Below are positions 7,856-25,534 of a stretch of 64,000 nt of DNA, in pieces. The translations under genes were made by a program, and so were the position numbers. The first letter of the stretch is position 1, and each line of letters opens with the position of its first letter. The notes beneath the pieces were generated by a model. The model did not search any database. It was not told the DNA's origin and worked only from the letters and a program-made list of their open reading frames with translations. This stretch comes from Antarcticimicrobium luteum (GTDB lineage: Bacteria > Pseudomonadota > Alphaproteobacteria > Rhodobacterales > Rhodobacteraceae). Location: assembly GCF_004358185.1 (NCBI RefSeq), contig NZ_SMUV01000074.1, forward strand, positions 186,001-250,000. Direction: 5' to 3'.

Positions 7856-9298
7856 TTACCAACTGGCCGAGATGTATTGCGTCTCCATGAATTCGAGCAT
7901 GCCCTCATGCCCGCCTTCACGGCCCAGACCCGATTGCTTGACGCCGCCGAACGGCGCGGCCGGATCGCTGACCAGACCGCGGTTCAACCCGACCATGCCG
8001 TATTCCAGCCGCTCGCAGACCTGCAGCGCGCGCTTCATGTCCTCGGAGAAGACATAGGCCACCAACCCGTATTCGGTGTCGTTGGCCCGCGCGATCACGT
8101 CCTCCTGGTCGGTGAAGGTCTGGATCGCCGCGACCGGGCCGAAGATCTCGTCATGCACGCAGTTCGCGGTTGCGGGCACGTTCGACAACACGGTGGGCGG
8201 ATAATAGAAACCGGGGCCGTTCGGCGGGGTGCCGCCGATCTCGACCCTGGCCCCCTTGGCGACCGCGTCGGCGACGAATTCGGCCACCTTGTCGCGGGTC
8301 TCGGCGTTGACCAGCGGGCCGACATCGACGCTCGGGTCGGTGCCATCTCCCACCTTGAGCGCGGCCATCGCGTCACGGAAGCGGCGGGTGAATTCGGCGG
8401 CCACGGCTTCGTGGACATAGATACGGTTGGCGGCGGTGCAGGCCTCGCCCAGATTGCGCATCTTGGCCAGCATCGCGCCCTCGACCGCGACGTCGAGATC
8501 GGCGTCGTCGAACACGATCAGCGGCGCATTGCCGCCCAGTTCCATCGCCGGTTTCAACACCTGATCGGCGGCCGAATGCAACAGTTTGCGGCCCACCCCG
8601 GTGGAGCCGGTGAAGCTGACCACGCGCACGCGCGGGTCATGCAACATGTGGTCGACCAGCGCGCTGGTGCGTTTGCTGGGCAGCACATTGACCAGTCCCG
8701 GCGGCACGCCGGCCTCTTCCAGAAGCGGCATGAGCGCCAGCATGGTCAGCGGCGTTTCCGAGGCCGGCTTGATGATGACCGCACAGCCCGCGGCCAGAGC
8801 CGGGGCAATCTTGCGCGTGCCCATGGCGGCGGGGTAGTTCCACGGCGTGACCAGCACCGCGAGGCCTGCGGGCTTGTGCTGCACCATGATCCGGGCCCCG
8901 CTGGCGGGGGCGTGGGTAATCAGCCCGTCGGCGCGCACTGCCTCTTCCGCGAACCAGCGGAAGAACTCGGCGGCGTAGGTGGCCTCGCCCATGGCATCGG
9001 CGCGGGCCTTGCCGTTTTCCAGGGTGATGTAGCGGGCGAATTCCTCCAGCCGCGCCGTCATCAGCTCCCACGCCTTGCGCAGCACCTCGGAGCGTTCGCG
9101 CGGGGTGCGCGCGGCCCAGTCGGCCATTGCCGCCTCGGCAGCGTTCAGCGCGGCGTCGGCATCGGCGATCTCGGCCGAGGCGACCGAGGCGAGCACCTCT
9201 TCCGTCGCAGGGTTGATGACGTCGAACCGCTCTTTGGCGGCACCCGGCACCCATTTGCCGTTGATGTAGAGATCGGTGAATTCCATGTTGGTCTCCAT
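7856..9298 (-). CDS. NAD(P)-dependent aldehyde dehydrogenase, succinate-semialdehyde dehydrogenase type
   Basis: This 480-residue aldehyde dehydrogenase has the catalytic Cys287 in GEACTAANR and Glu253 in MELGGNAP, plus PWNYPA, FTGSTGVG, and the C-terminal FGGVKQSGLGREGG. The closest group is GabD-like succinate-semialdehyde dehydrogenase, an enzyme that oxidises a small aldehyde to its acid. It is embedded between the lipoyl-carrier gene and the E2 core gene, 3 and 10 bases from them. That placement suggests it clears an aldehyde released by the E1/E2 complex, as acetaldehyde is released from acetoin. The actual aldehyde is inferred only. Confidence 0.9.
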   Translation of the reverse strand: METNMEFTDLYINGKWVPGAAKERFDVINPATEEVLASVASAEIADADAALNAAEAAMADWAARTPRERSEVLRKAWELMTARLEEFARYITLENGKARADAMGEATYAAEFFRWFAEEAVRADGLITHAPASGARIMVQHKPAGLAVLVTPWNYPAAMGTRKIAPALAAGCAVIIKPASETPLTMLALMPLLEEAGVPPGLVNVLPSKRTSALVDHMLHDPRVRVVSFTGSTGVGRKLLHSAADQVLKPAMELGGNAPLIVFDDADLDVAVEGAMLAKMRNLGEACTAANRIYVHEAVAAEFTRRFRDAMAALKVGDGTDPSVDVGPLVNAETRDKVAEFVADAVAKGARVEIGGTPPNGPGFYYPPTVLSNVPATANCVHDEIFGPVAAIQTFTDQEDVIARANDTEYGLVAYVFSEDMKRALQVCERLEYGMVGLNRGLVSDPAAPFGGVKQSGLGREGGHEGMLEFMETQYISASW

Positions 9299-9301
9299 GG
9301 C

Positions 9302-10597
9302 TCAGAGCAGGTGGCGGAGCGGCTGCTCCATCCGGCCCGCGAATTCGGAAAGAAGGCTGACCGCCTGCGCCGCGGTCAGATGGTGGCTTGCGCATTCCAG
9401 CGTGATCGAAAGGCCGTCGCCCGACCGTGTCAGGGTCAGAACCGGCGCCGCCTCGGCCCCCAGGTTGACAGTGCTGAGCCGGCTCATCCGCAAGTCGCGC
9501 AGATACAGGTCGGGCATGGTGTCGGGATCGGCGTCCGAGATGCCGCCCAGCGGGCCGGCCGGAACGGAATGGACGCTGGTCCGGCCGATGCTCTCAACCG
9601 TGACTGTCGCACTGTCGCGCCCGAGGCTTGCCGCCGCCAGTCCGGCCAACAGGGCATTGCCATCGCCAAGCCCCGCATGTTCCGCCGCCCAGGCGGCAAA
9701 CCCGGGGAAGCCATCGGCGGGCAGTTCCGCAACCAGACGGCGCGTGGCCGCCGGCGCATCGGCTGGCGCCTTGGCCGGAAGCGATTTCAGAACCTCGACA
9801 TCTGCGGCGTGATAGGGCTGTGGGTGTCCGGCCTCGACCAACCGGGTCAGATCCAGCCCCTGTTCCAGCGCCAGCCGCCGCGCCTTCGGCGAGGCGAGGA
9901 GACCCCCATCGGACCGAACCGGCGCCGGGGCTTTGCGCGCCGCTGCGGGGGCTTCGGCCCGTGCTGGTTCCGGTTCAGACCGGGGCGCAGGCGCGGCAGC
10001 CGGTTCGGGCGCGCGTGCACCACCGGATCGGCTGACCTGCAGCGGGTTCGAGGGTTTCTCGGCCGAAATCACCGCGATGGTTTCACCGACCGGGGCGTCC
10101 TCCCCCGCCTCGGCCAGAAGGGCGGCGACGAAACCGCCGGCCCCCGCCTCGACCTCCATCGTCGATTTGTCGGTCTCGACCTCGAACAGGATATCGCCTG
10201 CGTCCACCGCATCGCCCGGCGCCTTGTGCCAGGCGACGATCAATCCGGTGTCCTGGGCCATCCCGAGCGCGGGCATGATGACGGGATGGCCTTCCGGCAG
10301 GTCGGCCGCCTCGGAGGCGGCCGTGCCGGCCGGGGTCTCCTCGGTATGAACCGCCTCGGCGTCCTCTCCGATCATAGCGATGACGTCACCCACGGGCACC
10401 TCGTCCCCGGCATGGGCGCGCATCTGCGTGAGAAAGCCGTCCGCCTGGGCCTCGACTTCCATCGTCGCCTTGTCGGTTTCCACCTCGAACAGCACATCGC
10501 CGGACTTGACCGCATCGCCCGGGCTCTTGTACCAGGCGACGATCAGGCCGGTCTCCTGGGCCATGCCCAGCGCTGGCATGATCACCTCATGCGGCAT
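9302..10597 (-). CDS. Di-lipoyl carrier protein with degenerate E2 C-terminus
   Basis: This 431-residue protein has two tandem lipoyl domains, with lipoylation lysines at about Lys43 and Lys144 in ETDK(A/S)TMEVEA motifs. An Ala/Pro-rich linker, a subunit-binding domain near 232-270 (ASPKARRLALEQGLDL) and a C-terminal domain of about 140 residues follow. That last part looks like a decayed E2 catalytic domain: the DHRV-x-x-G motif is replaced by SHHLTAA. It probably shuttles acyl groups from E1 to the separate E2 core at 6967-7845. Its start overlaps the E1 beta stop by 11 bases. Confidence 0.85.
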   Translation of the reverse strand: MPHEVIMPALGMAQETGLIVAWYKSPGDAVKSGDVLFEVETDKATMEVEAQADGFLTQMRAHAGDEVPVGDVIAMIGEDAEAVHTEETPAGTAASEAADLPEGHPVIMPALGMAQDTGLIVAWHKAPGDAVDAGDILFEVETDKSTMEVEAGAGGFVAALLAEAGEDAPVGETIAVISAEKPSNPLQVSRSGGARAPEPAAAPAPRSEPEPARAEAPAAARKAPAPVRSDGGLLASPKARRLALEQGLDLTRLVEAGHPQPYHAADVEVLKSLPAKAPADAPAATRRLVAELPADGFPGFAAWAAEHAGLGDGNALLAGLAAASLGRDSATVTVESIGRTSVHSVPAGPLGGISDADPDTMPDLYLRDLRMSRLSTVNLGAEAAPVLTLTRSGDGLSITLECASHHLTAAQAVSLLSEFAGRMEQPLRHLL

Positions 10598-11582
10598 GGA
10601 TCATCTCCCCCGACATGAGTTTGCGGGCGCTTGCGGCCACGCCTTCGGGCGTCGGAACGGTGATGTCCTCCAGCGCGGGCGAGAACGGCACCGGCACGTC
10701 CATCGCGCCCATGCGCAGCACCGGCGCATCCAGGTGATAGAACGCCTTTTCGTTGATCCGGCTGGCGATCTCTCCGGTGATGCCAAAGCTCTGGTGGCCC
10801 TCGTCCACGACGATCACGCGCGAGGTCTTTTTCGCCGATTTCAACAGCGTTTCCTCGTCCAGCGGCACGATGGTGCGCGGGTCGATCACCTCCGCGCTGA
10901 CGCCTTCGCTGGCCAGCAGTTCGGCGGCCTGTTGGCAGACCTGGACCATGGACGAGGTCCCGATCAACGTGATGTCCGACCCTTCGCGCAGGACATTCGC
11001 CTGGCCGAAGGGGATGAGGTATTCCTCCTCCGGCACCGGCGCCTTGTCGTTATACATCAGCTTGTCTTCGAAGATCACCACCGGGTTGTCGTCGCGGATC
11101 GCGGTCTTCATCAGCCCCTTGGCCTCATAGGCCGAAGAGGGCAACGCCACTTTCAGCCCCGGAATATGCGCCACCAGCGCATGCAGCGACTGGGAATGCT
11201 GCGCCGCCGAGCGCCGCGTGGCGCCAAGATTGGTGCGCACCACCAGGGGCACGTTCAGCTTGCCGCCCGACATGTAGTGGGTCTTGGCCGCCTGATTGCA
11301 GAGCTGATCCATGATCAGATAGATGAAATCGCCGAACATCAGGTCCACCACGGGGCGCGTCCCGGTCATCGCCGCCCCCACGGCAAGCCCCATGAAGCCT
11401 GGCTCGGCGATCGGCGTGTCGACGACGCGATCGGTGCCGAACTCTTCGACCAGACCGGACAGGACCTTGAACGGCGTGCCGGCCTCGGCGACGTCTTCGC
11501 CTATGATGAACACGGTCTCATCGCGGCGCATTTCCTCGGCCAGCGCTTCGTTCACGGCCTGGGACAGGGTAATATTTCTCAT
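10587..11582 (-). CDS. Thiamine-dependent dehydrogenase E1, beta subunit
   Basis: This is the 331-residue beta subunit of an alpha2beta2 E1. It has the transketolase-like pyrimidine domain (IGEDVAEAGTPFKV, EPGFMGLAVGAAM, LMFGDFIYLIMDQ) and the C-terminal transketolase domain (EVIDPRTIVPLDEET, VVDEGHQSFGITGEIA). With E1 alpha it decarboxylates a 2-oxo acid or cleaves acetoin and loads the product onto lipoate. AcoB- and PdhB-type proteins cannot be separated from sequence alone. It follows E1 alpha by 12 bases in the leftward operon and overlaps the lipoyl-carrier start. Confidence 0.9.
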   Translation of the reverse strand: MRNITLSQAVNEALAEEMRRDETVFIIGEDVAEAGTPFKVLSGLVEEFGTDRVVDTPIAEPGFMGLAVGAAMTGTRPVVDLMFGDFIYLIMDQLCNQAAKTHYMSGGKLNVPLVVRTNLGATRRSAAQHSQSLHALVAHIPGLKVALPSSAYEAKGLMKTAIRDDNPVVIFEDKLMYNDKAPVPEEEYLIPFGQANVLREGSDITLIGTSSMVQVCQQAAELLASEGVSAEVIDPRTIVPLDEETLLKSAKKTSRVIVVDEGHQSFGITGEIASRINEKAFYHLDAPVLRMGAMDVPVPFSPALEDITVPTPEGVAASARKLMSGEMIHAA

Positions 11583-11594
11583 CGGTCGTTCTCC

Positions 11595-12596
11595 TCAGGC
11601 GAGCGCGTGCTTGACGTCGGTAAAGACGTGCATGTCGACTTCCGACGTGTCGGGATACTTGGCGGCGAGCGCGTATTCGACCGCGGCGGCGGCGTCGGCC
11701 TCGATCGCGGCCTGCATCTCGGCGAGGTTCTCTTTCGTGGCAATGCCCTCCTTGGTCAGGTAGGCGCCGAACAAGGTGATCGGATCCTTGTTGTCCTTCC
11801 AATCGCGCTCTTCGTCCTTGCGGCGGTAGTATTCGCGGTTGATGTCGCCGACGTGGTGGCCGTGATAGCGATAGGTCATCAGCTCCATGAAGAACGGGCC
11901 TTCGCCCTTGCGGGCGCGGGCGACCAGATCCTGGGTCAGCTGGTTCACGGCGAGCACGTCCTGGCCGTTGACGCTGTGCGCCTCGATGCCAAAGGCCTCG
12001 GCGCGCGCGGGGATCGAGCCGGCGGCGATCTCATCGGTGGCGGTGTATTCGGAATAGCCGTTGTTCTCGCAGGCATAGATCACCGGCAGCTTCCATAGCG
12101 CGGCCATGTTCATGACCTCGTACATCAGGCCCTGTGCCGTGGCGCCGTCGCCGAAGAAACAGACGGTGACATCGTCGCGGCCCAGCAATTTGGCGGTAAA
12201 GGCCGATCCGGTGGCGATCCCCATCGAGCCGCCGACGATGGCGTTGGCGCCGAGATTGCCGTTGGACTGGTCGGCGATGTGCATCGAGCCGCCCTTGCCG
12301 CGGCAATAGCCCTCTTCCTTGCCCAGAAGCTCGCAGAACATTTCCTTGAACGCGGCGCCCTTGGCCACGCAATGGCCGTGGCCACGATGGGTCGAGGTGA
12401 TCTTGTCGGTCACTTCGAGTGCCTCGCAGATGCCGACGGCGACGGCCTCCTCGCCGGAGTACATATGCGTCAACCCCGGCATCTTGGCCGACAGGTACAG
12501 CTGGTTGGCGTTGTCCTCGAAGGTGCGGATGCGGACCATCTGGCGGTACATGCGCAGATAATCTTCGGTGTTGCTCGTTTTCTTGGCGGGGCTCAT
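11595..12596 (-). CDS. Thiamine-dependent dehydrogenase E1, alpha subunit
   Basis: This 333-residue protein binds thiamine diphosphate through GDGATAQG...CENN, and contains THRGHGHCVAKG and GKGGSMHI, typical of E1 alpha. A YHGHHVGD segment followed by REYYRRKDE near residue 245 recalls acetoin dehydrogenase AcoA as well as pyruvate dehydrogenase. With the neighbouring beta subunit it would form the first catalytic component of the complex encoded between 5.6 and 12.6 kb. The gap to the upstream M24 gene is 57 bases and contains GGGAGG near the M24 stop. The substrate is undetermined. Confidence 0.9.
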   Translation of the reverse strand: MSPAKKTSNTEDYLRMYRQMVRIRTFEDNANQLYLSAKMPGLTHMYSGEEAVAVGICEALEVTDKITSTHRGHGHCVAKGAAFKEMFCELLGKEEGYCRGKGGSMHIADQSNGNLGANAIVGGSMGIATGSAFTAKLLGRDDVTVCFFGDGATAQGLMYEVMNMAALWKLPVIYACENNGYSEYTATDEIAAGSIPARAEAFGIEAHSVNGQDVLAVNQLTQDLVARARKGEGPFFMELMTYRYHGHHVGDINREYYRRKDEERDWKDNKDPITLFGAYLTKEGIATKENLAEMQAAIEADAAAAVEYALAAKYPDTSEVDMHVFTDVKHALA

Positions 12597-12653: not shown

Positions 12654-13955
12654 TCAGTAGCGGTTGGCGATCGGCAGATCCTTGGCCGGGAACAGGCTGA
12701 TCACTTCGCAACCCTTGTCGGTCACGACCACCTCTTCCTCGATCCGCGCGGCCGAGTAGCCGTCGGTCGCGGGGCAATAGGTTTCCAGCGCAAAGACCAT
12801 CCCGGTCTGGATCTCCATCGGGTTTTCAAGCGACACCGCGCGGGAGATGATCGGACGTTCGTGCAGCGCCAGGCCCAGGCCGTGACCGAATTGCAGACCG
12901 AAGGCGCTCAGCTCATCCGGGAAGCCGAACTCCTCGGCCTTGGGCCAGGCCTGCGCCACCACGTCGGTGGTCACGCCGGGACGGATCAGGTCGATCGACG
13001 CATCGATCCATTCGCGCGCCTTCACATAGGCGTCGTTCTGCGCCGGGGTCGAGAAGCCGACATTGAACGTGCGGTAATAGCAGGTGCGGTAGCCCTGGTA
13101 GCTTTGCAGAATGTCGAAGAACGCCTGATCGCCGGGGCGGAACTGCCGGTCGGTGAAGTTGTGCGGATGCGGATTGCAGCGCTCGCCCGAAATGGCGTTG
13201 ATCGCCTCCACATCGTCCGAACCCCACTCGTAGAGCAGCTTGTTCGACAGCGCGACGATCTCGTTTTCGCGCACGCCGGGCTTCAGCTCTTCGTAGATGG
13301 CGTGATAGACGCCGTCGACCATGCTGGCCGCCTGGTTCAGCAGCTGGATCTCGTCGATATTCTTGATCTCGCGCGCCGACAGCATGACCTGCTGACCATC
13401 GACCACGTTCAGCCCGGCCTCCTGCAGGGCAAAGAACATCGCCGTTTCGGCATAATCGACGCCCACCGGCATGTCGGCCATGCCGGCCTTCTTGATCAGG
13501 CTGGCGATTTCCTCGGCGTAGCGTTTCATCAGGCCGAAGCTGGGCGGAATGGTGCCGCGCATGCCGACTACACCGGCCAGCATCCGGTCGGGATCGAGCC
13601 AGTCGCAATACTCGCGGTGGTGCACGGCGGCGGACCCGAAATCCCAGACATAGGGTTCCTCGTCGCCCGCCAGCAGGCAGAACCGGCACATCTTGTCGCG
13701 TTCCCACTCACCGATCTTGGTGCCCGAGACGTAGCGGATGTTGTTGACGTCAAACATCAGCATCGAGCCGAGGTTCGACTTCTTCAACGCGTCCTTGGCG
13801 CGGCTCAGGCGATAGCGGCGCAGGCGGTCATGATCGACCCGGCGCTCGAAATCCACGGCCGTGTGGCCGAGTGCGGGGATGTGACGGTCCCAGCGCCAGC
13901 GCGGATCCATGTCGCCGGGCTGCAGGATGCGGGGGTTCAGGGCATTGGTGTTCAT
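12654..13955 (-). CDS. M24 family creatinase/aminopeptidase-like protein with altered metal site
   Basis: This 433-residue protein has the M24 'pita-bread' fold. Expected metal ligands are Asp281, His358 in FGHGLGL, Glu391 in ALETY and Glu407 in RIEEEV. The second Asp, expected 11 residues after the first, is Cys292 (GYRTCYYRTF). Creatinase also lacks the full metal set, so this may hydrolyse a C-N bond without two metals, or bind one metal. DMSP-cleaving DddP is a distant relative, but its residue pattern differs. No signal peptide is visible. It lies between an SDR and E1 alpha, so it presumably acts on a pathway intermediate or nitrogenous substrate. Confidence 0.78.
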   Translation of the reverse strand: MNTNALNPRILQPGDMDPRWRWDRHIPALGHTAVDFERRVDHDRLRRYRLSRAKDALKKSNLGSMLMFDVNNIRYVSGTKIGEWERDKMCRFCLLAGDEEPYVWDFGSAAVHHREYCDWLDPDRMLAGVVGMRGTIPPSFGLMKRYAEEIASLIKKAGMADMPVGVDYAETAMFFALQEAGLNVVDGQQVMLSAREIKNIDEIQLLNQAASMVDGVYHAIYEELKPGVRENEIVALSNKLLYEWGSDDVEAINAISGERCNPHPHNFTDRQFRPGDQAFFDILQSYQGYRTCYYRTFNVGFSTPAQNDAYVKAREWIDASIDLIRPGVTTDVVAQAWPKAEEFGFPDELSAFGLQFGHGLGLALHERPIISRAVSLENPMEIQTGMVFALETYCPATDGYSAARIEEEVVVTDKGCEVISLFPAKDLPIANRY

Positions 13956-14024: not shown

Positions 14025-14834
14025 TCACTGGATGCACCAGCCCCCGTCGATGTGGATCATCTGGCCGGTCATGTAGTCGCTGTCGTTACTGGCCAGGAAG
14101 GATGCGGTGCCGACGATGTCCTTGGGATAGGACACGCGCTTGATCTGCAGCGCGTCGCGGACGATGTCGTCATAGGCCTGGCCTTCGCGTTCCTTGAACC
14201 CGATGTCGACCAGATCCTTGTCGAGCTGCTCCCACAGCGGCGTCACCACGACACCGGGCGCGTAGCCGTTGACGGTGATGTTGTGTTCGGCCAATCCGAT
14301 GGCGCCGCAATGGGTCAGCGCGAGACAGCCGTATTTCGAGGTGCAGTAGACGGTGACGTCGACCAGCGGTTTGCGCGAGGCGATCGAGCCGACATTGATC
14401 AGCTTGTAGGGGTGATCCTCCATCGGACCCTGGGCGATCATCTGGCGGGCGGTCTCCTGCATGCCCAGCCACATCGCCTTGGTATTGACGTTCATGATCA
14501 TGTCCCAGTTGTCTTCATCGATATCCATGAAGAACCGGGGCTTGTTGAGACCGGCGTTGAAGAGACCCACGTTGATCGAACCGAACGCCTCGACCGTGGC
14601 GGCGACGGCAGCGGCGTTGTCCTCGCGCTTGGTCACGTCCATCTTGACCGCGATCGCCTTGCCGTTGCCCGCTGCGTTGATGCGGTCGGCCGTTTTCTGG
14701 GCTTCGTCGAGGTCCAGATCCCCAAGGCACACATTGGCGCCCTGCGCGGCAAAGCTCTCGGCATTGGCCGCCCCCATACCGCGCGCGGCACCGGTGATCA
14801 GGATGTTCTTACCTTTCAGACGATTGGGGTCCAT
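14025..14834 (-). CDS. Short-chain dehydrogenase, polyol/diol type
   Basis: This 269-residue SDR has TGAARGMG at 14-21, the catalytic Ser150/Tyr163/Lys167, and an APGVVVTPLWEQLDKDL segment like sorbitol, butanediol and diacetyl/acetoin reductases. It would oxidise a secondary alcohol with NAD(P). It is a paralogue of the SDR at 17937-18734: both share NKP after the NAG motif, GMQE(T/A)A, the WEQ(L/V)D signature and the SDYMTGQ tail. The two therefore probably act on related substrates or stereoisomers. It is the second gene of the leftward operon, 18 bases after the regulator. Confidence 0.85.
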   Translation of the reverse strand: MDPNRLKGKNILITGAARGMGAANAESFAAQGANVCLGDLDLDEAQKTADRINAAGNGKAIAVKMDVTKREDNAAAVAATVEAFGSINVGLFNAGLNKPRFFMDIDEDNWDMIMNVNTKAMWLGMQETARQMIAQGPMEDHPYKLINVGSIASRKPLVDVTVYCTSKYGCLALTHCGAIGLAEHNITVNGYAPGVVVTPLWEQLDKDLVDIGFKEREGQAYDDIVRDALQIKRVSYPKDIVGTASFLASNDSDYMTGQMIHIDGGWCIQ

Positions 14835-14852: not shown

Positions 14853-16682
14853 TCACGTTGTTCTGATTTGTCGCATCAGCGCATCGGCCCGGTCCTGGGC
14901 CTGGCGCAAAGCCTGGCGCGGGGTCACGATCCCGCGCAGCATGTCGTGGAATTCCTCGCCGCAGATCTGGATGATGTCGCAGATCTCGGGCACCGGCGGG
15001 CGCGGCCAGAATTGCAGCTCGTCGCGCCAGGACATGTTGTCGACCGCCTCAAAGATCTGCGAGGCGCGGCGCACCTCGGGGTCGGCGCCGACCGAGAACC
15101 GCGGATTGGTGCGGCTGCCGTTCTGAACGTAAAGCTTCTGGGCGCCGGGCGAGGTGAAGACGATCAGCGCCTCGACGGCGGCGGCGACCCGTTCGGGCGG
15201 AAGGTTGGCCGGGATGCCCATCATATAGCCCCCAACCGGCGCCACCGGTGTGGCCCCGGGGCCTGCGGGATGCGGCAGGTAGCCGGTTTGCCCGAAGGCG
15301 GGCGAGGTCTCGTCCAGCTCGAAGTACGGCGCCAGCAGCGTATAACCATAGGCCATGGCGATCTTGCCGGCCGCATAGGGGCGGACGCGCTCGTACCAGG
15401 ACATCGACAGGATATCGGGCGGCGAAAAATCCAGCAGGTTCATCAGGAACTCAGCGGCCTGCAGGCCCGTTTCGGTGTCGATCGTCGGCCGGTAGTCATG
15501 ATCGGAGAGGTGATCCGTGCCGAACCCGCCGGCGATCTCGGGAAGGTTCAGCACCGGCTGGCCGAAATCGGCCATGGTCATCAGAACGGTGTGACCCAGC
15601 GCGGTGCCGCGCGCGGCGTTCCAGGCAATCCCGTACCGGCCCCTGCCCGGCGCGTGCAAGGCGGCGGCGGCCTCAAGCAAGTCGCCGGTTGTGGCGGGCG
15701 GTTCGAGACCGGCCTCGGCGAACAGATCCTTACGGTAAAACAGCAGCTCGGGCGTGGTCTGGGCCGGCACACCATAGGGGCGCCCGCCCCAATGCGCGGC
15801 CTGCCAGCCGGCGGCATGGAAATCCGCCGGGTCGAGCCGGGCGATGTCCATCGCCTCGTCCAGCGGCATCAACATGCCGCGCTCGGCATATCCGCCGACC
15901 CAGGGCAGATCCAACGCGATGATGTCATAGCGGCTGACCTTGCGTTCGGCATTTCGCATCGCTTCTTCGCGCAGCCGGTCGATGGAAAAGGCGCGCTGGT
16001 GGATCGGGCTGCCGATGACCTGTTCGAATTGGCGCTTGAGGTTGTCCATCACCATGAAGGTCGGGTCGCCATGCACCAGCACGCGGATACCGCCGGGCGC
16101 CTTCAGCGGTTCGGGCAGAACCTTCAGCGGCGGGATCGACTTTGCAGAGAGGTAGGACCCGCCATAGTAGTAATCCTTGTTGTCCCGGCTGCGGTCCCGC
16201 CCGCCGAACCGGGCCTCGGCCAGGCGTCCGACCCGCCCCGACAACTGCATCCACTGCTCCAGCATTTTCTCGCTCGGATGCATCGAGAAACTCTTGCCGG
16301 TCTGGGTGCGCGGGCGCTGCTCGATCAGCCCGGATTCGACCATTTCCTTGAGGCGCCGGTTGGCGGTGGCATAAGGCACCTGACTTGCCCCGATCAGCGA
16401 GGTCGGGGTCACTGTCTTGGCCTCCAGGTGGCCGCGGATCAGGTGCAGGGTCATCCGAAAATGGGGATTGGGCGCGAACAGTTCGATCGACGTCTCAAGC
16501 TCGTCTCCGAAATCCTCGAGATAGGACAGGATATGAAGCATCTCGGTTTTCGCCTGCGGCGAAACCAGATAGCTATCGGTATGTCCCTTCATCGCGTTCA
16601 TTGGGTGTGCTTGCGCCCTTTGTGGTCCGCGCGGCGCCTTCACCGCGGTTTTTTTCAAATTGGACGAATCCGGTTCAGGCAT
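14853..16682 (-). CDS. Winged-helix regulator fused to a solute-binding protein domain
   Basis: This 609-residue protein has no signal peptide. Residues ~75-150 look like a MarR/GntR-like winged helix (LIGASQVPYATANRRLKEMV, ESGLIEQRP). Residues ~195-595 look like a family-1 extracellular solute-binding protein (YDIIALDLPWVGGYAERG, DEAMDIARLDPADF, AAGKIAMAYGY). The natural reading is a cytoplasmic one-component regulator sensing a carbohydrate-like ligand, analogous in design to SgrR, which has a different binding-domain family. The start was set at 16682 because GAGGAGAGACGCA precedes it; upstream in-frame sequence crosses the operator. It is first in the leftward operon and divergent from the ABC transporter genes. 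Confidence 0.8.
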   Translation of the reverse strand: MPEPDSSNLKKTAVKAPRGPQRAQAHPMNAMKGHTDSYLVSPQAKTEMLHILSYLEDFGDELETSIELFAPNPHFRMTLHLIRGHLEAKTVTPTSLIGASQVPYATANRRLKEMVESGLIEQRPRTQTGKSFSMHPSEKMLEQWMQLSGRVGRLAEARFGGRDRSRDNKDYYYGGSYLSAKSIPPLKVLPEPLKAPGGIRVLVHGDPTFMVMDNLKRQFEQVIGSPIHQRAFSIDRLREEAMRNAERKVSRYDIIALDLPWVGGYAERGMLMPLDEAMDIARLDPADFHAAGWQAAHWGGRPYGVPAQTTPELLFYRKDLFAEAGLEPPATTGDLLEAAAALHAPGRGRYGIAWNAARGTALGHTVLMTMADFGQPVLNLPEIAGGFGTDHLSDHDYRPTIDTETGLQAAEFLMNLLDFSPPDILSMSWYERVRPYAAGKIAMAYGYTLLAPYFELDETSPAFGQTGYLPHPAGPGATPVAPVGGYMMGIPANLPPERVAAAVEALIVFTSPGAQKLYVQNGSRTNPRFSVGADPEVRRASQIFEAVDNMSWRDELQFWPRPPVPEICDIIQICGEEFHDMLRGIVTPRQALRQAQDRADALMRQIRTT

Positions 16683-16735
16683 TGCGTCTCTCCTCGTCAG
16701 GATGTTCAAACTGGCATCCAGATCGTATCGCGAAA

Positions 16736-16773
16736 TTATCCATTTTGGATGTATTGTTATTCGTTTTGGATAA
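16736..16773. promoter_or_regulatory. Candidate operator with 21-bp-spaced repeats
   Basis: In the 218-base divergent intergenic region, TTATCC (16736-16741) and GGATAA (16768-16773) form an outer inverted repeat. TTTTGGAT occurs twice, at 16743-16750 and 16764-16771, exactly 21 bases apart (two helical turns). ATCCATTTTGGAT is itself palindromic. This AT-rich patch in GC-rich DNA is a likely binding site for the fusion regulator and would control both divergent operons. Binding by that protein is inference. Confidence 0.6.
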
Positions 16774-16900
16774 ATAAGCTGCGTTGCGTGCCGGGTGAAA
16801 AAGGCAATGTGGGCGCAATCGTCCGATACCCCGGATGATATTTGTCCGACCCGAATGAGGGTATGGACTTGAAACAGGGACAATCTGGGAGGAGACCCGA

Positions 16901-17857
16901 ATGAAGATCCGCAACGCATTGGCGATGTCCACTGCCGCCGTCACCCTGGCCTTCGCCGGCAGTGCCTCGGCCGAAACCTGGACCATCGGCATCACGCAGA
17001 ACAATGTGGGCGTCGACAGTTACCAGACCACTTACGAAAAGGCCTTCATCGCCGCGGCCGACGCCAACCCGAATGTCGACGCCGTCGTTCTTGACGCCGG
17101 CGGCGACGTCGCCCGCCAGATCGCCCAGATGGAAGACCTGATCCAACAGGAAGTCGACGCCATCATCATCTGGCCGACCAACGGCGAAGCGGTGATCCCC
17201 GCTGTGCGCAAGGCGCACAAGGCCGGCATCCCGGTCGTCGTCACCAACTCGAACATCGCCGAGCAGGGCTTCGATTTCGTCGCCTCGTTCTCCGGTCCCG
17301 ACAATATCACGCAAGGGTCGCGTTCGGCGGAAATCATGTGCGACAAGTTCAAGGCTATGGGCATCGAAAACGAAGCCCGCGTGGTGCAGATCTCGGGCCA
17401 GCCGGGCTACACCACCGCGATCGAGCGCCAGAAAGGCTTTGACGACCGTCTGCCGGAGGTTTGCCCGAACGTCACCCTGGTCGAAACCCAGCCAGGCGAC
17501 TGGAACCGCGAGAAGTCGCAGAAGGTCATGGAGGCCTTCCTCGTCAAGTATGACGACATCGACGGCGTCTATGCCGGCGACGACAACATGGGTGTGGGCG
17601 CGCTGAACGCCGCCAAGGCCGCCGGGCGCGAAGGCATCATCTTCGTCGGCGCCACCAACTTTTCCGTCGGCTACGAGGCCATGGAACGCGGCGAGTATTG
17701 GGGGTCGATCTACCAGTCGCCGGTCGATGATGCCGAGGCAGCCCTGGAAACGTCCATCGACATCCTGAACGGTACCGAGGTTCCGTTCCTGAACTACTTC
17801 GACACGCCGAAGATCACCCAGGACAACATGGGCGACTTCACCAAGCCGGTCTTCTAA
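16901..17857 (+). CDS. Ribose-type ABC transporter substrate-binding protein
   Basis: This 318-residue periplasmic binding protein of the RbsB/LacI-like fold has a Sec signal peptide (residues 1-24, cleavage after SASA). The first mature strand is TWTIGITQNNVG. DLIQQEVDAIIIWPTN, AGIPVVVTNS and VYAGDDNMGVGAL match the sugar-binding family. It would capture a sugar, polyol or related small molecule and deliver it to the permeases encoded just downstream. GGGAGGAGA precedes the ATG. It opens the rightward operon. The ligand cannot be read from sequence. Confidence 0.92.
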   Translation: MKIRNALAMSTAAVTLAFAGSASAETWTIGITQNNVGVDSYQTTYEKAFIAAADANPNVDAVVLDAGGDVARQIAQMEDLIQQEVDAIIIWPTNGEAVIPAVRKAHKAGIPVVVTNSNIAEQGFDFVASFSGPDNITQGSRSAEIMCDKFKAMGIENEARVVQISGQPGYTTAIERQKGFDDRLPEVCPNVTLVETQPGDWNREKSQKVMEAFLVKYDDIDGVYAGDDNMGVGALNAAKAAGREGIIFVGATNFSVGYEAMERGEYWGSIYQSPVDDAEAALETSIDILNGTEVPFLNYFDTPKITQDNMGDFTKPVF

Positions 17858-17936: not shown

Positions 17937-18734
17937 ATGGCCCGAGTTTCCGGCCGTTCATGTATCGTGACCGGTGCAGCCCAAGGTATTGGGCGCGCCA
18001 TCGGTGAGGCGCTTCTTGACGAAGGCGCCGACGTTTGTTTCGCCGATATCAACGGTGAAAAGGTCGCCCAGGTCGCCGGGGCCAACCGCGAAAGAGCGGC
18101 GCGGGGCGGAGGCAGGGTCACCCATGCCGCCGTTGACGTGACCGACCGCGCCCAAGTGCGCGCGATGATCGATCATGCGGTCGATGTCTTTGGCAAGCTC
18201 GACGTCAAGTTCAACAACGCGGGCGTCAACAAGCCGATGAACTTTCTCGACGTGACCGAGGAAAACTGGCGCCTGATCACGGATGTGAACGGGCTTGGCT
18301 GCCTCATCGGAATGCAGGAAGCCGCGAAACAATTCATCCGGCAAGGCACGTTCGGCAAGATCATCAATACCGCCTCGATCGCCAGCCGGCAGGGGTTCGA
18401 CAACGTCGCGCCCTACTGCGCATCGAAATGGGGGGTGGTCTCGCTGACGCAATCGGGTGCGCGTGATCTGGCCAAACATGATATCACCGTCACGGGTTTC
18501 GCGCCCGGTGTGGTGGCTACCGAGATGTGGGAGCAGGTCGATCAGGACCTGATGGAGATCGGCGCGGCCGAGCGGCCGGGTCAGGCAATGGAAGAATTCT
18601 CTTCCGAAATCCTGAAAGGCCGCGTTGCAGCGCCTGAGGACATCACCGGGACGACAACGTTCCTGGCATCGAAGGACAGCGACTACATGACCGGCCAGAT
18701 CGTGATGATCGACGGCGGCATGACGCTGGTGTGA
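17937..18734 (+). CDS. Short-chain dehydrogenase, polyol/diol type
   Basis: This 265-residue SDR has TGAAQGIG at 12-19, NNAG at 93-96 and Ser147/Tyr160/Lys164. GFAPGVVATEMWEQVDQDL resembles sorbitol and acetoin/butanediol dehydrogenases. The start at 17937 is supported by GGGAGGGG immediately upstream; an earlier in-frame ATG lacks such a site. It is inserted between the binding protein and the first permease, an arrangement seen in polyol operons where the imported alcohol is oxidised at once. It is paralogous to the SDR at 14025-14834. Confidence 0.87.
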   Translation: MARVSGRSCIVTGAAQGIGRAIGEALLDEGADVCFADINGEKVAQVAGANRERAARGGGRVTHAAVDVTDRAQVRAMIDHAVDVFGKLDVKFNNAGVNKPMNFLDVTEENWRLITDVNGLGCLIGMQEAAKQFIRQGTFGKIINTASIASRQGFDNVAPYCASKWGVVSLTQSGARDLAKHDITVTGFAPGVVATEMWEQVDQDLMEIGAAERPGQAMEEFSSEILKGRVAAPEDITGTTTFLASKDSDYMTGQIVMIDGGMTLV

Positions 18735-18765
18735 TCGCCGCGTGGGCGGCAAATGGGAGGAAGCC

Positions 18766-19740
18766 ATGGCAGGGCTGACAAAAGAACAGATCGGCGGCTT
18801 TCTGGCCCGGCAGGGGATACTCGTCGCCTTCGTGGTGTTCATGATCGGGTTCACACTCGCGAATGCGCGATTTCTTGATCCTGATAACATCATGGGCGTG
18901 GTGCGGTCGTCGGCCATCCTCGGGGTGATGGCGCTGGGGGTCACCTTCGTGGTGATCAGCGGCAATCTCGACCTGTCGGTCGGCTCGATGATGTCGTTCT
19001 CCACGATCGTCGTTCTGGATTTGCATGACAAGATCGGCCCGACGCTGGCGATCCCGGCCATGTTCGCGATGACGCTCTGTCTGGGCGCTTTCATCGGCTT
19101 CCTGGTCGGTTATCTGAAGCTCAATTCGCTGATTGTCACCTTGGGGATGCTGTCGGCCATTCACGGGCTGACACTGACCTATTCCGGCGGCAAGAATATG
19201 GATATCGCCGATAAGGAAGGCACCTGGTTCAAGGTGTTCGGCCAGGGTGATGCGCTGGGAATTCCGGTGCCGATCCTGCTGTTTGTCCTGTTGGCCGTGG
19301 TGCTTGGCGCCCTGCTGTCCAAGACACCGTTCGGGCGCAAGGTCTATGCGGTGGGCGGCAACGGCACCGCGGCAACCTTTTCGGGCATCCGCCGGGCGCG
19401 GGTCGTCTTCACCTGCTATCTGATGAGCGCCTTGTGCGTCGCCACCGCCGGCCTGATCCAGGCCAGCCGCAGCCTCGGCTCGCAGAACACCGTGGGCCAG
19501 GGGCTCGAGCTTGAGGTGCTGGCCGCCGTCATCCTCGGCGGTGCCTCGCTGATGGGCGGTTCTGGCACGATCTTCAAGACGGTGATCGGGGTGCTGATCC
19601 TAGGCTTCATCCAGAACGGGCTGCTGCTTGTCGGCCTGCAGTTCTACGTCCAGTTCGTCGTGACCTGGGTCATCATCATCCTTGCGGTCTGGCTCGATAT
19701 CGCGGCCAAGCGCGGCAAGCTCTGGTCCCCAATCGCCTGA
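18766..19740 (+). CDS. Ribose-type ABC transporter permease
   Basis: This is a 324-residue inner-membrane permease of the RbsC/BPD_transp_2 family with about 8-10 hydrophobic segments. Hallmarks are GVTFVVISGNLDLSVGSMMSF near the N-terminal third, LGMLSAIHGLTLTYSGG, and LEVLAAVILGGASLMGGSGT near the C-terminus. The start at 18766 follows GGGAGGAAGCC; the earlier in-frame ATG at 18742 lacks a ribosome binding site. It should pair with the next permease and the double ATPase to import the ligand of the 16901-17857 binding protein. Confidence 0.93.
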   Translation: MAGLTKEQIGGFLARQGILVAFVVFMIGFTLANARFLDPDNIMGVVRSSAILGVMALGVTFVVISGNLDLSVGSMMSFSTIVVLDLHDKIGPTLAIPAMFAMTLCLGAFIGFLVGYLKLNSLIVTLGMLSAIHGLTLTYSGGKNMDIADKEGTWFKVFGQGDALGIPVPILLFVLLAVVLGALLSKTPFGRKVYAVGGNGTAATFSGIRRARVVFTCYLMSALCVATAGLIQASRSLGSQNTVGQGLELEVLAAVILGGASLMGGSGTIFKTVIGVLILGFIQNGLLLVGLQFYVQFVVTWVIIILAVWLDIAAKRGKLWSPIA

Positions 19741-19753
19741 AGGAGGAGAGATC

Positions 19754-20751
19754 ATGCAACCCGGAACCCTTTCCACCCTGCTCAAGCGCGGCGCCATCTG
19801 GGGCTTTATCGTGCTGGAGCTGATTTTCTTCACCGTCGCGGGCGAGTTCCTGAGCCTGAGTGAGAAGGCCTTCATGGATGTCGACAACATGCTGCTGTTG
19901 TTCAAGCAGTCGGCACCGATCGGCATCATCGCCATGGGCATGACCATCGTCATGGTCAACGGCAATATCGACCTGAGTGTCGGGGCGACCTATGCCATTT
20001 CCGCCATCGTCCTGTTGGACAGCATGACCTGGCCGCTCTTTGCCGGGCTCGGCGACGGGGTGATCCCGGTCGCCTGGGCACTGGCGCTTCTGACAGGCAC
20101 CCTGCTGGGCGCGCTGAATGGCCTGATCGTCTGGAAGACCGGGGTCGATGCCTTCATCGTGACGCTGGGATCGATGCTTGGCTATCGCGGTCTGGTCTTC
20201 ATGTATAACGGTGAACAGCCCACCAGCCACCTGAACTGGACCCTGGTGGACTTCGCCGAGGCGCAATGGCTGGGGCTGCACACCGCCACCTGGTTCCTGC
20301 TGATCGCGACCGCGGCGATCTGGTTCCTGATGAACCGCACCGTGCACGGGCGCAACGTTTACGCCATCGGCGACAACCGCACCGCTGTGGTGAATGCCGG
20401 CATCCGCGTCGGCCCGCACATGATGATCAACTTCATGATCATCGGCTTTTTGGCGGCGCTGTCAGCGGTGGTGTTCTATTCGGAATCCGGATCGGTCAAT
20501 CCCAATGACGGCGAGCTCTACGAGCTCTGGGTCATCACCGCGGTCGTGTTGGGCGGCACCAAGCTGACCGGCGGCTCGGGCTCGATCATCTCGACCTTCG
20601 GCGGGGTTCTGGCGATCCAGCTTCTGCGCAAGGGGCTGGCGCATATCGGCGCCGATACCTCGACTGTGAACCTGGTGATCGGCCTGATCCTGATCGCCGT
20701 CCTGTTCCTGGACCGCCAGTTGAATATCAAGGGTAAAGAGGAGCTGAAGGT

Positions 20752-20755
<4 letters not shown>
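19754..20755 (+). CDS. Ribose-type ABC transporter permease
   Basis: This second BPD_transp_2 permease has 333 residues. It contains GMTIVMVNGNIDLSVGATYA, VTLGSMLGYRGL, and VITAVVLGGTKLTGGSGSI. It differs enough from the first permease to suggest a heterodimeric channel. The start at 19754 follows AGGAGGAGAGATC, a near-perfect ribosome binding site, 13 bases after the first permease stop. Its stop overlaps the ATPase start by four bases (ATGA). Confidence 0.93.
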
Positions 20756-22272
<1,517 letters not shown>

Positions 22273-23538: not shown

Positions 23539-23587
23539 TCCCCTTCCGGGCCTTGGCAGTTTGGCAGCGAGAGACGGGAGGACCACA

Positions 23588-24547
23588 ATGAAGCTCACCG
23601 AACTGGCGGACCTCTACCGCCGGATGCTTTTGATCCGGCGCGCGGAGGAGCGTTTGCAAAAGCTCTTTGCCGATGGGCAAGTGCCCGGCTTTCTTCATCT
23701 CTCCATTGGGCAGGAGGCGGTTCCGGTCGGTGTGTCCAGCGCTCTGAGTGATCGCGACACCGTGTCGTCGAACCATCGCGGCCATGGCCATACGCTTGCC
23801 AAGGGTGTGGACCTTACGGGTTTCTTTGCCGAAATTCTGGGCAAGGCCACCGGACTTTGCAAGGGCCGGGGCGGTTCGATGCATGTGGCCGATCTGAGCA
23901 AGGGGATGCTGGGCGCCAACGGGATCGTCGGCGCCGGCCTTCCCATCACCACCGGCAGCGCGCTGGCGCACAAGATGCAGCGGCAGGGGCATGTCGCGGC
24001 CGTCTATTTCGGCGATGGGGCTCTGGCGGAGGGTGTGCTGCATGAATGCCTGAACATCGCCAAGCTCTGGTCGCTGCCAATTCTGTTCGTTTGTGAGAAT
24101 AACGGCTGGTCGGAATTCAGCCCGACCGACCGCCAGCTTGCCACCAATCTCGAAAAACTGGGCAAGGCTTTTGCGATGAAATACCGCTCGGTCGATGGCA
24201 ATGTCATCGCCGATGTGGCCGCCGCCGCCGGAAAGCTAGTGGGGCCGATGCGGAGATACCCTGCCCCGGCGATCCTCGAATGCCGCACCACCCGGGTGCG
24301 CGGCCATTACGAGGGCGACAGGCAGGACTATCGCGACGCCGGTGAGATCGCCGCGCTCGAGGCGCGCGATCCGATCCGGCTTGCCGCCGAGGCGCTGGCC
24401 GAGGCGGGGGCCGCGCCCGATCTGATCGCCGGGATCGCCGCCGAGGTGGATGCCGAGATCGAAGCCGCCGCCGAGGCCGCGCTGGCCGCTCCCCTGCCCA
24501 AAAGCGCCGACATTCTCGCCGATGTCTACACGCCAGCCGAGGTCTGA
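23588..24547 (+). CDS. Thiamine-dependent dehydrogenase E1, alpha subunit (second set)
   Basis: This 319-residue E1 alpha has the thiamine diphosphate motif GDGALAEG...CENN, NHRGHGHTLAKG, and GRGGSMHV. A C-terminal VRGHYEGDRQDYRD segment is especially like acetoin dehydrogenase AcoA. It should work with the beta subunit 3 bases downstream to attack a ketone or 2-oxo acid. The start at 23588 follows GACGGGAGGACCACA. It opens a seven-gene rightward operon that ends with a TetR gene, and the 31-bp element lies 50 bases upstream. Confidence 0.88.
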   Translation: MKLTELADLYRRMLLIRRAEERLQKLFADGQVPGFLHLSIGQEAVPVGVSSALSDRDTVSSNHRGHGHTLAKGVDLTGFFAEILGKATGLCKGRGGSMHVADLSKGMLGANGIVGAGLPITTGSALAHKMQRQGHVAAVYFGDGALAEGVLHECLNIAKLWSLPILFVCENNGWSEFSPTDRQLATNLEKLGKAFAMKYRSVDGNVIADVAAAAGKLVGPMRRYPAPAILECRTTRVRGHYEGDRQDYRDAGEIAALEARDPIRLAAEALAEAGAAPDLIAGIAAEVDAEIEAAAEAALAAPLPKSADILADVYTPAEV

Positions 24548-24550
24548 CCC

Positions 24551-25534
24551 ATGACTGAGATACGCTATATCAAAGCCGTCAATCAGGCCCTCTGGGATGC
24601 GATGGAGGCCGATCCGAGCGTCTTCCTGATCGGCGAGGATATCGGCGCCGCCGGAGGATCGTTCAAGGCGACGCGCGATCTGCTTGACAGGTTCGGGCCC
24701 GAGCGGGTCTATGACACGCCAATTTCCGAAGCCGCCATCGCCGGCATGGCCGTCGGCGCCGCGCTCACCGGAATGCGGCCGGTGGCCGAGATCATGTTCA
24801 TGGATTTTACCACGCTCACGATGGACATGCTCGTCAATCAGGCGGCCAAGGCGCGCTCGATGTTCGGCGGTCAGGGATCTGTTCCGATGGTTCTGCGCAC
24901 GCCGCATGGCGGCGGACTCAATGCCGGGCCGCAGCATTCGCAATGCCTGGAGGCATGGTTCGCGCATGTCCCGGGGCTCAAGGTGGTCTGCCCGGCCAAT
25001 CCGGCCGATGCCTATGGCCTCCTGCGCGCCGCAATCGACGATCCCGACCCGGTGATCGTGGTCGAAAACAAGGCGCTTTACGCGATGAAGGGCGATCTGC
25101 CCGATGCGCCGGAGGCGCGCGAACGGATCGAGATCGGCAAGGGCAGGATCGTCCGGCCCGGGCATGATGCCACCGTCGTGGCCTACGGCGCCGCCGTGAC
25201 CATGGCCGAAGCCGCCGCCGCGAATTTGGCCGGGGAAGGCATTGACGTCGAGGTGATCGACCTGCGCTCGCTGCAACCATGGGACGAAGGGCTGGTTCTG
25301 GAAAGCCTTTCGCGCACCCATAACCTCGTTGTCGCGCATGAAGCGGTCGAGGCATTCGGCATTGGCGCCGAGATTGCCGCGCGCATGGCCGATATCGGCT
25401 TTGACGAGTTGGACGGGCCAATCACCCGGGTCGGTGCGCCCTTTGCCCCTTCGCCTTTCGGCAAAACACTGGAAGACGCCTACCGCCCCAACGCAGAGCG
25501 TATCGAGGCGGCCCTGCGCCGCACGCTCGCCTGA
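24551..25534 (+). CDS. Thiamine-dependent dehydrogenase E1, beta subunit (second set)
   Basis: This 327-residue E1 beta has IGEDIGAAGGSFKATRDL, ISEAAIAGMAVGAAL, MFMDFTTLTMDMLVNQAAK, QHSQCLEAWFAHVPGL, and a C-terminal transketolase domain with EVIDLRSLQPWD and VVAHEAVEAFG. It belongs to the AcoB/PdhB family and pairs with the preceding alpha subunit. A gap of three bases separates the two genes. It shares family but only moderate sequence with the module 1 beta subunit, suggesting a different substrate. Confidence 0.9.
   Translation: MTEIRYIKAVNQALWDAMEADPSVFLIGEDIGAAGGSFKATRDLLDRFGPERVYDTPISEAAIAGMAVGAALTGMRPVAEIMFMDFTTLTMDMLVNQAAKARSMFGGQGSVPMVLRTPHGGGLNAGPQHSQCLEAWFAHVPGLKVVCPANPADAYGLLRAAIDDPDPVIVVENKALYAMKGDLPDAPEARERIEIGKGRIVRPGHDATVVAYGAAVTMAEAAAANLAGEGIDVEVIDLRSLQPWDEGLVLESLSRTHNLVVAHEAVEAFGIGAEIAARMADIGFDELDGPITRVGAPFAPSPFGKTLEDAYRPNAERIEAALRRTLA

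Follow-up and report, generated by a model that had tools for sequence, protein, structure and literature searches.

A predicted cytoplasmic regulator joining a MarR-like winged helix to a family-1 solute-binding protein, encoded next to a ribose-type importer in Antarcticimicrobium luteum

The regulator gene, its neighbours and its domains

The stretch analysed here (the window; 64,000 nucleotides of contig NZ_SMUV01000074.1 of Antarcticimicrobium luteum) carries on its reverse strand a gene (14853..16682) for a 609-aa protein, hereafter the regulator, in which translation, orthologue frames, Pfam and AlphaFold2 place a winged helix-turn-helix (wHTH) before a solute-binding protein (SBP). The genome of 4.66 Mb, in 74 contigs, holds one full-length copy. 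The start codon at 16682 is backed by the orthologues L009, L010, L014 and L036, in which the frame opens a few codons before it; judging from sequence, some orthologues may start at the conserved Met28, which would leave the domains unchanged.

Divergent from the regulator gene, on the forward strand, are the genes of an importer, namely an exported ribose-type SBP (Peripla_BP_4; 16901..17857, from Pfam/profile match and linkage in orthologues), an SDR dehydrogenase within the importer operon (17937..18734, from profile match and orthologous loci), permease 1 (BPD_transp_2; 18742..19740) and an RbsA/AraG-type ATPase (20752..22272), both from Pfam/profile matches, and, between these two, permease 2 (19754..20755), which was assigned from its place and annotated orthologues and starts at an ATG inside the listed ORF. 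The families of the SBP, permease and ATPase agree with the original prediction of a ribose-type importer. On the reverse strand, 18 bp downstream of the regulator, lies the SDR dehydrogenase gene SDR1 (14025..14834, from Pfam and orthologous loci), and this short distance between the stop codon of the regulator and the start of SDR1 suggests a single transcript. SDR1 is followed on the same strand by an M24 peptidase-family enzyme (12654..13955, from profile match and orthologous loci) and by four genes named via an annotated orthologous locus, which encode the E1 alpha (11595..12596) and E1 beta (10587..11582) of a TPP-dependent 2-oxoacid dehydrogenase, a biotin/lipoyl-containing protein (9302..10597) and an aldehyde dehydrogenase (ALDH) that is of succinate-semialdehyde type by name (7856..9298). 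The M24 protein is DddP-like in sequence and aligns along DddP, at 113 bits far below the cut-off of 600. By names given by eye and from orthologues, E1 alpha/beta-like pairs flank the importer operon (10587-12596 and 23582-25534), the second being followed by an enoyl-CoA hydratase-like gene.

Among 103 distinct orthologous loci, the window left out, the divergent ribose-type SBP gene was present in all 102 with at least 900 bases upstream, and SDR1 was the next gene downstream on the same strand in all 101 with at least 700 bases downstream. Beyond SDR1, M24 follows in most orthologues, and in many then E1 alpha, E1 beta, the lipoyl protein and ALDH, while other orthologues have one or two extra SDR-like matches in place of the E1/lipoyl/ALDH genes. 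In two 1.4-Mb genomes, a regulator of 33% identity lies between sugar-type genes (names by eye) and a divergent ribose-type importer, which is again followed by SDR1, M24 and E1; the M24 gene thus occurs there as well as in most orthologous loci. Distant members in Rhizobium sp. WL3, Sinorhizobium sp. B11 and Aminobacter sp. MSH1 adjoin hydroxyquinol-type genes (intradiol dioxygenase and maleylacetate reductase) and other distant members adjoin family-1 importers, indicating that the sensor domain and the importer are not tied in kind. The clusters of L163, L164 and L165 (Rhizobium, Sinorhizobium and Aminobacter) also hold YciI-type genes, in what appears to be a pathway ending in ring cleavage. 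In two genomes (L118 and L120), one ribose-type importer is flanked on both sides by two different family members.

Structure prediction, which had been proposed as a check, gave a model of the regulator with a mean pLDDT of 87 (AlphaFold2; alignment A1, 56 family members), in which a disordered arm (residues 1-37) and a long helix (42-65) precede the winged helix (73-137), and a second long helix (138-159) and a poorly ordered stretch (160-179) lead to a two-lobed binding protein from about residue 194 to the end. The claim of a winged helix followed by about 400 residues of MalE/UgpB-type binding protein was thus borne out, and no other fold was found in the C-terminal part when one was sought. 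The claimed basic linker at the start holds as to the presence of an N-terminal arm, which is polar as well as disordered, but the arm is only mildly basic, with six K/R and three D/E in the first 40 residues.

The family-1 SBP domain (residues 194-607; 14862..16103, reverse strand) was delimited from Pfam, AlphaFold2 and fold comparison with the PDB. SBP_bac_1 matched residues 252-516 at E=1.7e-25 (91.1 bits versus a cut-off of 26), SBP_bac_8 matched at 6.9e-20, and all 56 scanned family members matched SBP_bac_1 at E<=0.01. The closest solved fold was 5iai (Z 45.4, 2.4 A over 395 residues), and MalE3 6dtq (Z 41.3, 2.3 A, 383 residues) and TMBP 1eu8 (Z 40.5, 2.4 A, 392 residues) were also close. 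With Pfam over its cut-off and a full two-lobed fold, the C-terminal domain as modelled is a complete MalE/TMBP-type family-1 binding protein.

The winged helix (16272..16466, reverse strand), a predicted DNA-binding part assigned from AlphaFold2 and fold comparison with the PDB, consists in the model of helices 73-86, 93-99 and 104-116 and strands 120-124 and 132-136. MarR_2 matched residues 79-125 at 0.013 with 16.1 bits, below the cut-off of 27, and was matched by 18 of the 56 members at E<=0.01. The HTH of TrmB scored 13.5 bits in the regulator, below its cut-off of 25.6, and the C-terminal domain of TrmB had no Pfam match. When residues 38-162 were modelled alone (alignment A2), the winged helix again stood between long helices, at a pLDDT of 94. 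Its matches in the PDB were mostly MarR proteins at Z of about 8 to 9.5; the top rows include MepR (Z 9.5, 5.4 A over 94 residues) and, at Z 8.8, HpaR, which aligns over 96 residues at 3.4 A. Winged helices from outside the MarR family reach Z scores on a par with these (AF1382, 9.1; AspA, 8.9; TubR, 8.9). The first nine Foldseek rows had E<0.001, the best only 3e-4, with low TM-scores and large rmsd, and all nine are MarR-family proteins. The label MarR-like is used here because of sequence, order of elements and fold taken together.

Predicted cytoplasmic location, spread and origin of the family

Neither an export signal nor a membrane segment was found in the 609-aa protein by hydropathy and AlphaFold2. 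Taken as the highest Kyte-Doolittle mean per 19-residue window, hydropathy in the regulator reached -0.68 in residues 1-40, 0.33 in residues 1-60 and 0.58 in residues 1-215. Across 147 regulator sequences (132 distinct; two partial entries, L081 and L101, were dropped from 150 regulator matches), the maxima were 1.18 in residues 1-60 and 1.43 in residues 1-215, whereas in residues 1-60 the exported SBP of the importer reached 1.41 and the exported relative L136 reached 1.62. None of the 147 regulators attained the level of the exported importer SBP. An 11-residue window separates less well, with 10 of the 147 reaching the 1.70 of the exported SBP, and in the eight highest of these 10 the peak lies at positions 30-50. 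By N-terminal hydropathy and the disordered polar arm, the regulator has no Sec, Tat or lipoprotein signal of the kind carried by exported SBP_bac_1 proteins. A cleavable signal was thus sought and not found, as expected from the earlier claim that the protein lacks a signal peptide, and we rejected its identity as an exported protein on N-terminal hydropathy and the disordered arm in the model.

Database names point the other way. Relatives were found in 32 plasmid records, of Phaeobacter, Rhizobium, Tritonibacter, Shinella, Marinovum, Skermanella, Agrobacterium, Sinorhizobium, Aminobacter and others, and 26 of these call the protein an 'extracellular solute-binding protein' and one a periplasmic component, while five leave it unannotated and none names a regulator. 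If these names were right, the protein would serve an ABC importer as a binding protein that is exported or kept at the surface, with an odd N-terminus; the close relative L136, a genuine exported SBP next to MalFGK-type genes, and the 10 sequences singled out by the 11-residue window speak for such a view. Against it stand not only the lack of a hydrophobic stretch in residues 1-60, but also the conserved winged helix N-terminal to the SBP and the fact that the neighbouring importer has its own SBP, from a different family. Even the family-1 importers near the relatives L162 (Agrobacterium) and L165 (Aminobacter) carry a separate SBP with no real similarity to the sensor domain of the regulator (E 0.32 and 0.90, respectively). 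We thus regard an exported protein as hardly credible, and a cytoplasmic sensor built from a transport protein, as read earlier, is supported, its sensing and DNA binding being deduced.

Of 295 genomes in the GTDB family, among them the own genome, 38 hold a relative of at least 60% identity (partial in one case) and a further 12 have one that is full-length, at 32-54% identity, so that relatives occur in at least 50; both counts are lower bounds, as four candidates were scored in most genomes. Several genomes of this family hold two or three relatives. At class level, 6 of 289 genomes matched at E<=1e-60 (own included), two of them being the 1.4-Mb genomes, which come from one other family. 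In a profile search at phylum level, 5 of 299 genomes matched at E<=1e-40 (own included), among them L159, an SBP without winged helix, and one match outside the class, L227, with 53% identity to the regulator over residues 47-607. The named loci, which are the best 80 of the 142 detected, belong to Rhodobacterales and some to Rhizobiales, with single bins named otherwise. An account of this wHTH-SBP_bac_1 family was not found in the literature searched, the coverage of which was partial.

In a tree of SBP domains with 25 regulator and 14 exported rows, a branch with support 90/87 sets the regulators apart, and the row nearest to them is the exported L136 (99/100); two exported rows are the same gene, four are pieces that start after any signal and are assumed to be exported, and some branches are long. 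L136 (6986-8335 of its own locus) has a signal-type N-terminus, shares 42% identity with the sensor domain over 407 residues, and neighbours, by eye, MalFGK-type, FAD oxidase, GcvT-like and GMC oxidoreductase genes. Its 25 relatives listed at E<=1e-70 among 149 genomes of the order all have frames of at least 596 residues, the length of a regulator. By sequence, L136 could be a transport relative that has persisted, or it could descend from a regulator and have shed the winged helix. The ligand of L136 could hint at that of the sensor domain. As to independent fusions of a wHTH with SBP_bac_1, none was seen among ten long-frame SBP_bac_1 matches (513-953 aa), each of which, by eye, lacks a winged helix and carries a signal of Sec, Tat or lipoprotein type; they are a small sample, picked by eye among the matches listed in a 60-genome SBP_bac_1 search, with a few of similar length left out. 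A donor for the winged helix was not found; by eye, the weaker matches are for the most part IclR-like or ArsR-like proteins and proteins that combine a receiver domain with a MarR-like helix at the C-terminus. A GntR-SBP_bac_1 architecture probably exists in Firmicutes.

We consider it likely, though well short of certain, that these proteins form an unrecognised, mainly alphaproteobacterial family of transcription factors, which arose through a single fusion of a family-1 ABC SBP with a MarR-like winged helix and then spread to many catabolic operons, including ones with importers that use unrelated SBPs, mostly keeping a common operator architecture; the sensor may read a cytoplasmic intermediate.

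A conserved pair of predicted operator sites

The region of 16.7-16.9 kb, singled out in the original prediction, holds a conserved operator-like pair. The two predicted sites lie in the gap 16683-16900 and were located with a matrix trained on orthologues: site 1 (TTATCCATTTTGGATGT, 16736..16752) scores 22.2 bits, and site 2 (TTATTCGTTTTGGATAA, 16757..16773), 21 bp from site 1, scores 19.6 bits. The consensus is a 17-bp palindrome, ATATCCAWWWTGGATAT. In 99 of 104 orthologues, two copies of its form ATATCCA-n3-TGGATAT stand upstream of the regulator gene at a spacing of exactly 21 bp. The symmetric matrix (17 columns, 18.3 bits) was derived from 104 distinct orthologous upstream regions, the window included, after the copy L001 and near-identical loci present in two collections had been removed from 118. 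In 103 of the 104 regions, the best site exceeded the 99th percentile of shuffled sequences. This figure is partly circular, since the seed of the matrix was a palindrome spotted by eye and its training set consisted of related sequences, unlike the test on distant loci described below. Conservation falls off beyond both sites except in short stretches, which may be promoter elements. The next best match in the window scores 12.4 bits. This weaker third palindrome (16651-16667) lies within the regulator gene, at its 5' end. Genome-wide, the core with at most one mismatch occurs at seven places, two of which are this pair and the rest single, compared with five for the reversed control pattern.

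The independent test used 32 loci of members with less than 56% identity, some from close genera, that had not been used for the matrix, and 22 control stretches, 20 of them from arbitrary places in the same genomes and two from the own genome that carry other SBPs. The 531 kb near distant members contained 20 sites above 18 bits and the 351 kb of controls none, their best score being 17.7; above 14 bits, the numbers were 38 and four. The best score per locus differed between distant and control loci (Mann-Whitney p=1.2e-6). By a crude ORF call, 14 of the 20 sites above 18 bits fell in gaps and six within an ORF, as did 22 and 21, respectively, of the 43 sites above 13.5 bits, and gene coordinates derived from homology place at least three good sites within genes of the importer (L134, 10185; L135, 5516; L154, 12688).

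Sites also recur ahead of particular genes. In L114-L117, in which the regulator is last in its row, a site stands about 100 bp before a divergent SDR1 (19.2 bits in L116 and 19.6 in L117; weaker in L114, 15.1, and L115, 12.5), and L117 has a second site before the regulator gene itself. L152 and L153, of the 1.4-Mb genomes, have sites between regulator and importer and further ones before SDR1. In L163 and L164 (Rhizobium and Sinorhizobium), sites lie between divergent units of the hydroxyquinol-type clusters, and one cluster of Sinorhizobium sp. B11 contains three, each scoring about 20 bits, in gaps upstream of different genes. No such site was found before the regulator gene in the subgroup L129-L131 and L133 (about 33% identity), nor in L113. 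The pair and the recurrence of sites at many distant members suggest, from sequence, a largely common target of the family.

The palindromes could instead be the operator of another regulator acting on the same operons, since control by two or more regulators is common in sugar operons, binding by the wHTH-SBP protein is predicted, and one subgroup of the family has no site before its own gene. Such a regulator would have to account for sites that stand upstream of the regulator gene and recur by distant members, across different operons and genera; moreover, dyad symmetry suits a winged-helix dimer, and the own genome has one full-length regulator and one site pair. We therefore hold another regulator to be very unlikely, and the wHTH-SBP protein remains the preferred candidate for binding these sites.

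Proposed mechanism and relation to known regulators

Domain anatomy, the lack of an export signal, gene linkage and the conserved predicted operator with its recurrence by distant members were computed directly, and from these we infer DNA binding by the regulator, ligand binding, dimerisation and the sign of regulation. We propose, with a probability of about 0.8, that the regulator is a cytoplasmic one-component regulator, the winged helix of which acts on the palindromes and the family-1 domain of which senses a sugar- or polyol-like metabolite, switching the importer and catabolic operons.

In this scenario, the MarR-like winged helix would bind the 17-bp palindrome, and the long flanking helices probably form a dimer. 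Each palindrome would carry one dimer, the two being spaced by two helical turns (21 bp) along the same face of the DNA, between the regulator and the importer operon. The two-lobed domain would remain in the cytoplasm and close around the sugar- or polyol-like metabolite; the binding-protein domains would act as hinges driven by the ligand, and closure may change the set of the winged helices. Without ligand, the regulator most likely represses its own gene and the following SDR-M24-(E1/lipoyl/ALDH) genes, and the divergent importer would be controlled from the same two sites. Repression of its own gene is the likeliest part, because the sites are close to the regulator gene, their centres lying 62 and 83 bp before its start codon.

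The effect on the importer could be of either sign. As a variant of the proposed scenario rather than an exclusive rival to it, the importer may be activated instead of repressed, in the manner of SgrR. The site centres lie farther from the start codon of the importer (136 and 157 bp) than from that of the regulator, and the two promoters may thus be treated differently; on the other hand, scanning 16600-16960 for the sigma-70 consensus revealed no promoter by which to place the sites against transcription starts. Activation of the importer is a serious possibility, to which we give somewhat less than even odds.

The sensor domain has no real similarity to the ribose-type SBP of the importer (best E 2.2), and we rejected a kinship between the two. 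Since they are unrelated, the effector may be an intermediate of the pathway and not the imported solute. The best models for SDR1 and the SDR of the importer operon were acetoin/butanediol and polyol dehydrogenases, all below their cut-offs, which fits a polyol- or sugar-like effector without naming one. The structures 5iai and 4rya were presumably solved with polyols.

A DNA-binding regulator could also carry a ligand-dead binding domain that serves only for dimerisation or contact with another protein. Regulators can retain a dead domain as a scaffold, and the ligand of this domain is so far putative. The domain is nevertheless complete, with 395 residues aligned to 5iai at 2.4 A, and strongly conserved, W261, E312, R317, R358, W429, R528, W559 and R561 being invariant or nearly so among the 56 members. 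A dead domain is thus unlikely, and we favour a sensor that would bind its ligand.

As the family is hidden under the name 'extracellular solute-binding protein', regulators of sugar/polyol-type operons have probably been missed in marine and plant-associated Alphaproteobacteria, and the common predicted operator makes many regulons of the family predictable from sequence. The regulator would offer a clean example of a transport protein recast as a cytoplasmic sensor, and the well-studied specificity of binding proteins could become usable for biosensors.

MarR proteins are roughly 140 residues long and take up their ligands close to the dimer interface. As modelled, the regulator resembles MarR repressors in having a winged helix with long flanking helices, and it resembles them in a palindromic operator, here a predicted one, but it adds a 415-residue binding protein, and its MarR_2 match is below the cut-off. 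Its sensor domain has the same complete fold as family-1 sugar SBPs (5iai, 1eu8 and 6dtq); unlike these, the regulator has no signal peptide and carries a winged helix, and the importer in the window and in orthologues is of another type. LacI/GalR and LysR proteins are one-component regulators with sensor folds like those of periplasmic binding proteins. Their sensor families and DNA-binding domains are different, and neither the LacI HTH, Peripla_BP_3 nor LysR had a Pfam match in the regulator at E<=0.1.

The closest parallel in design is SgrR of Escherichia coli, as originally suggested, and DsvR of Vibrio cholerae is built alike, with the HTH N-terminal and the solute-binding domain C-terminal. 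The parallel stands, in that a 2026 preprint describes an SgrR homologue as an N-terminal HTH with a C-terminal SBP_bac5 (PMC13060122), and SgrR activates its target and represses its own gene (PMC7786190). SgrR and DsvR differ in having SBP_bac_5, whereas the regulator combines SBP_bac_1 with a MarR-like winged helix. In line with the prediction of another sensor family, the regulator matched SBP_bac_1 and SBP_bac_8, and neither SgrR_N nor SBP_bac_5 at E<=0.1; likewise, the 11 families matched by the 56 members at E<=0.01 include SBP_bac_1/8 instead of SBP_bac_5 and no SgrR_N-type HTH. An SgrR-type design with other domains is thus known, and what appears to be new is this pairing of domains as a family, together with its predicted operator.
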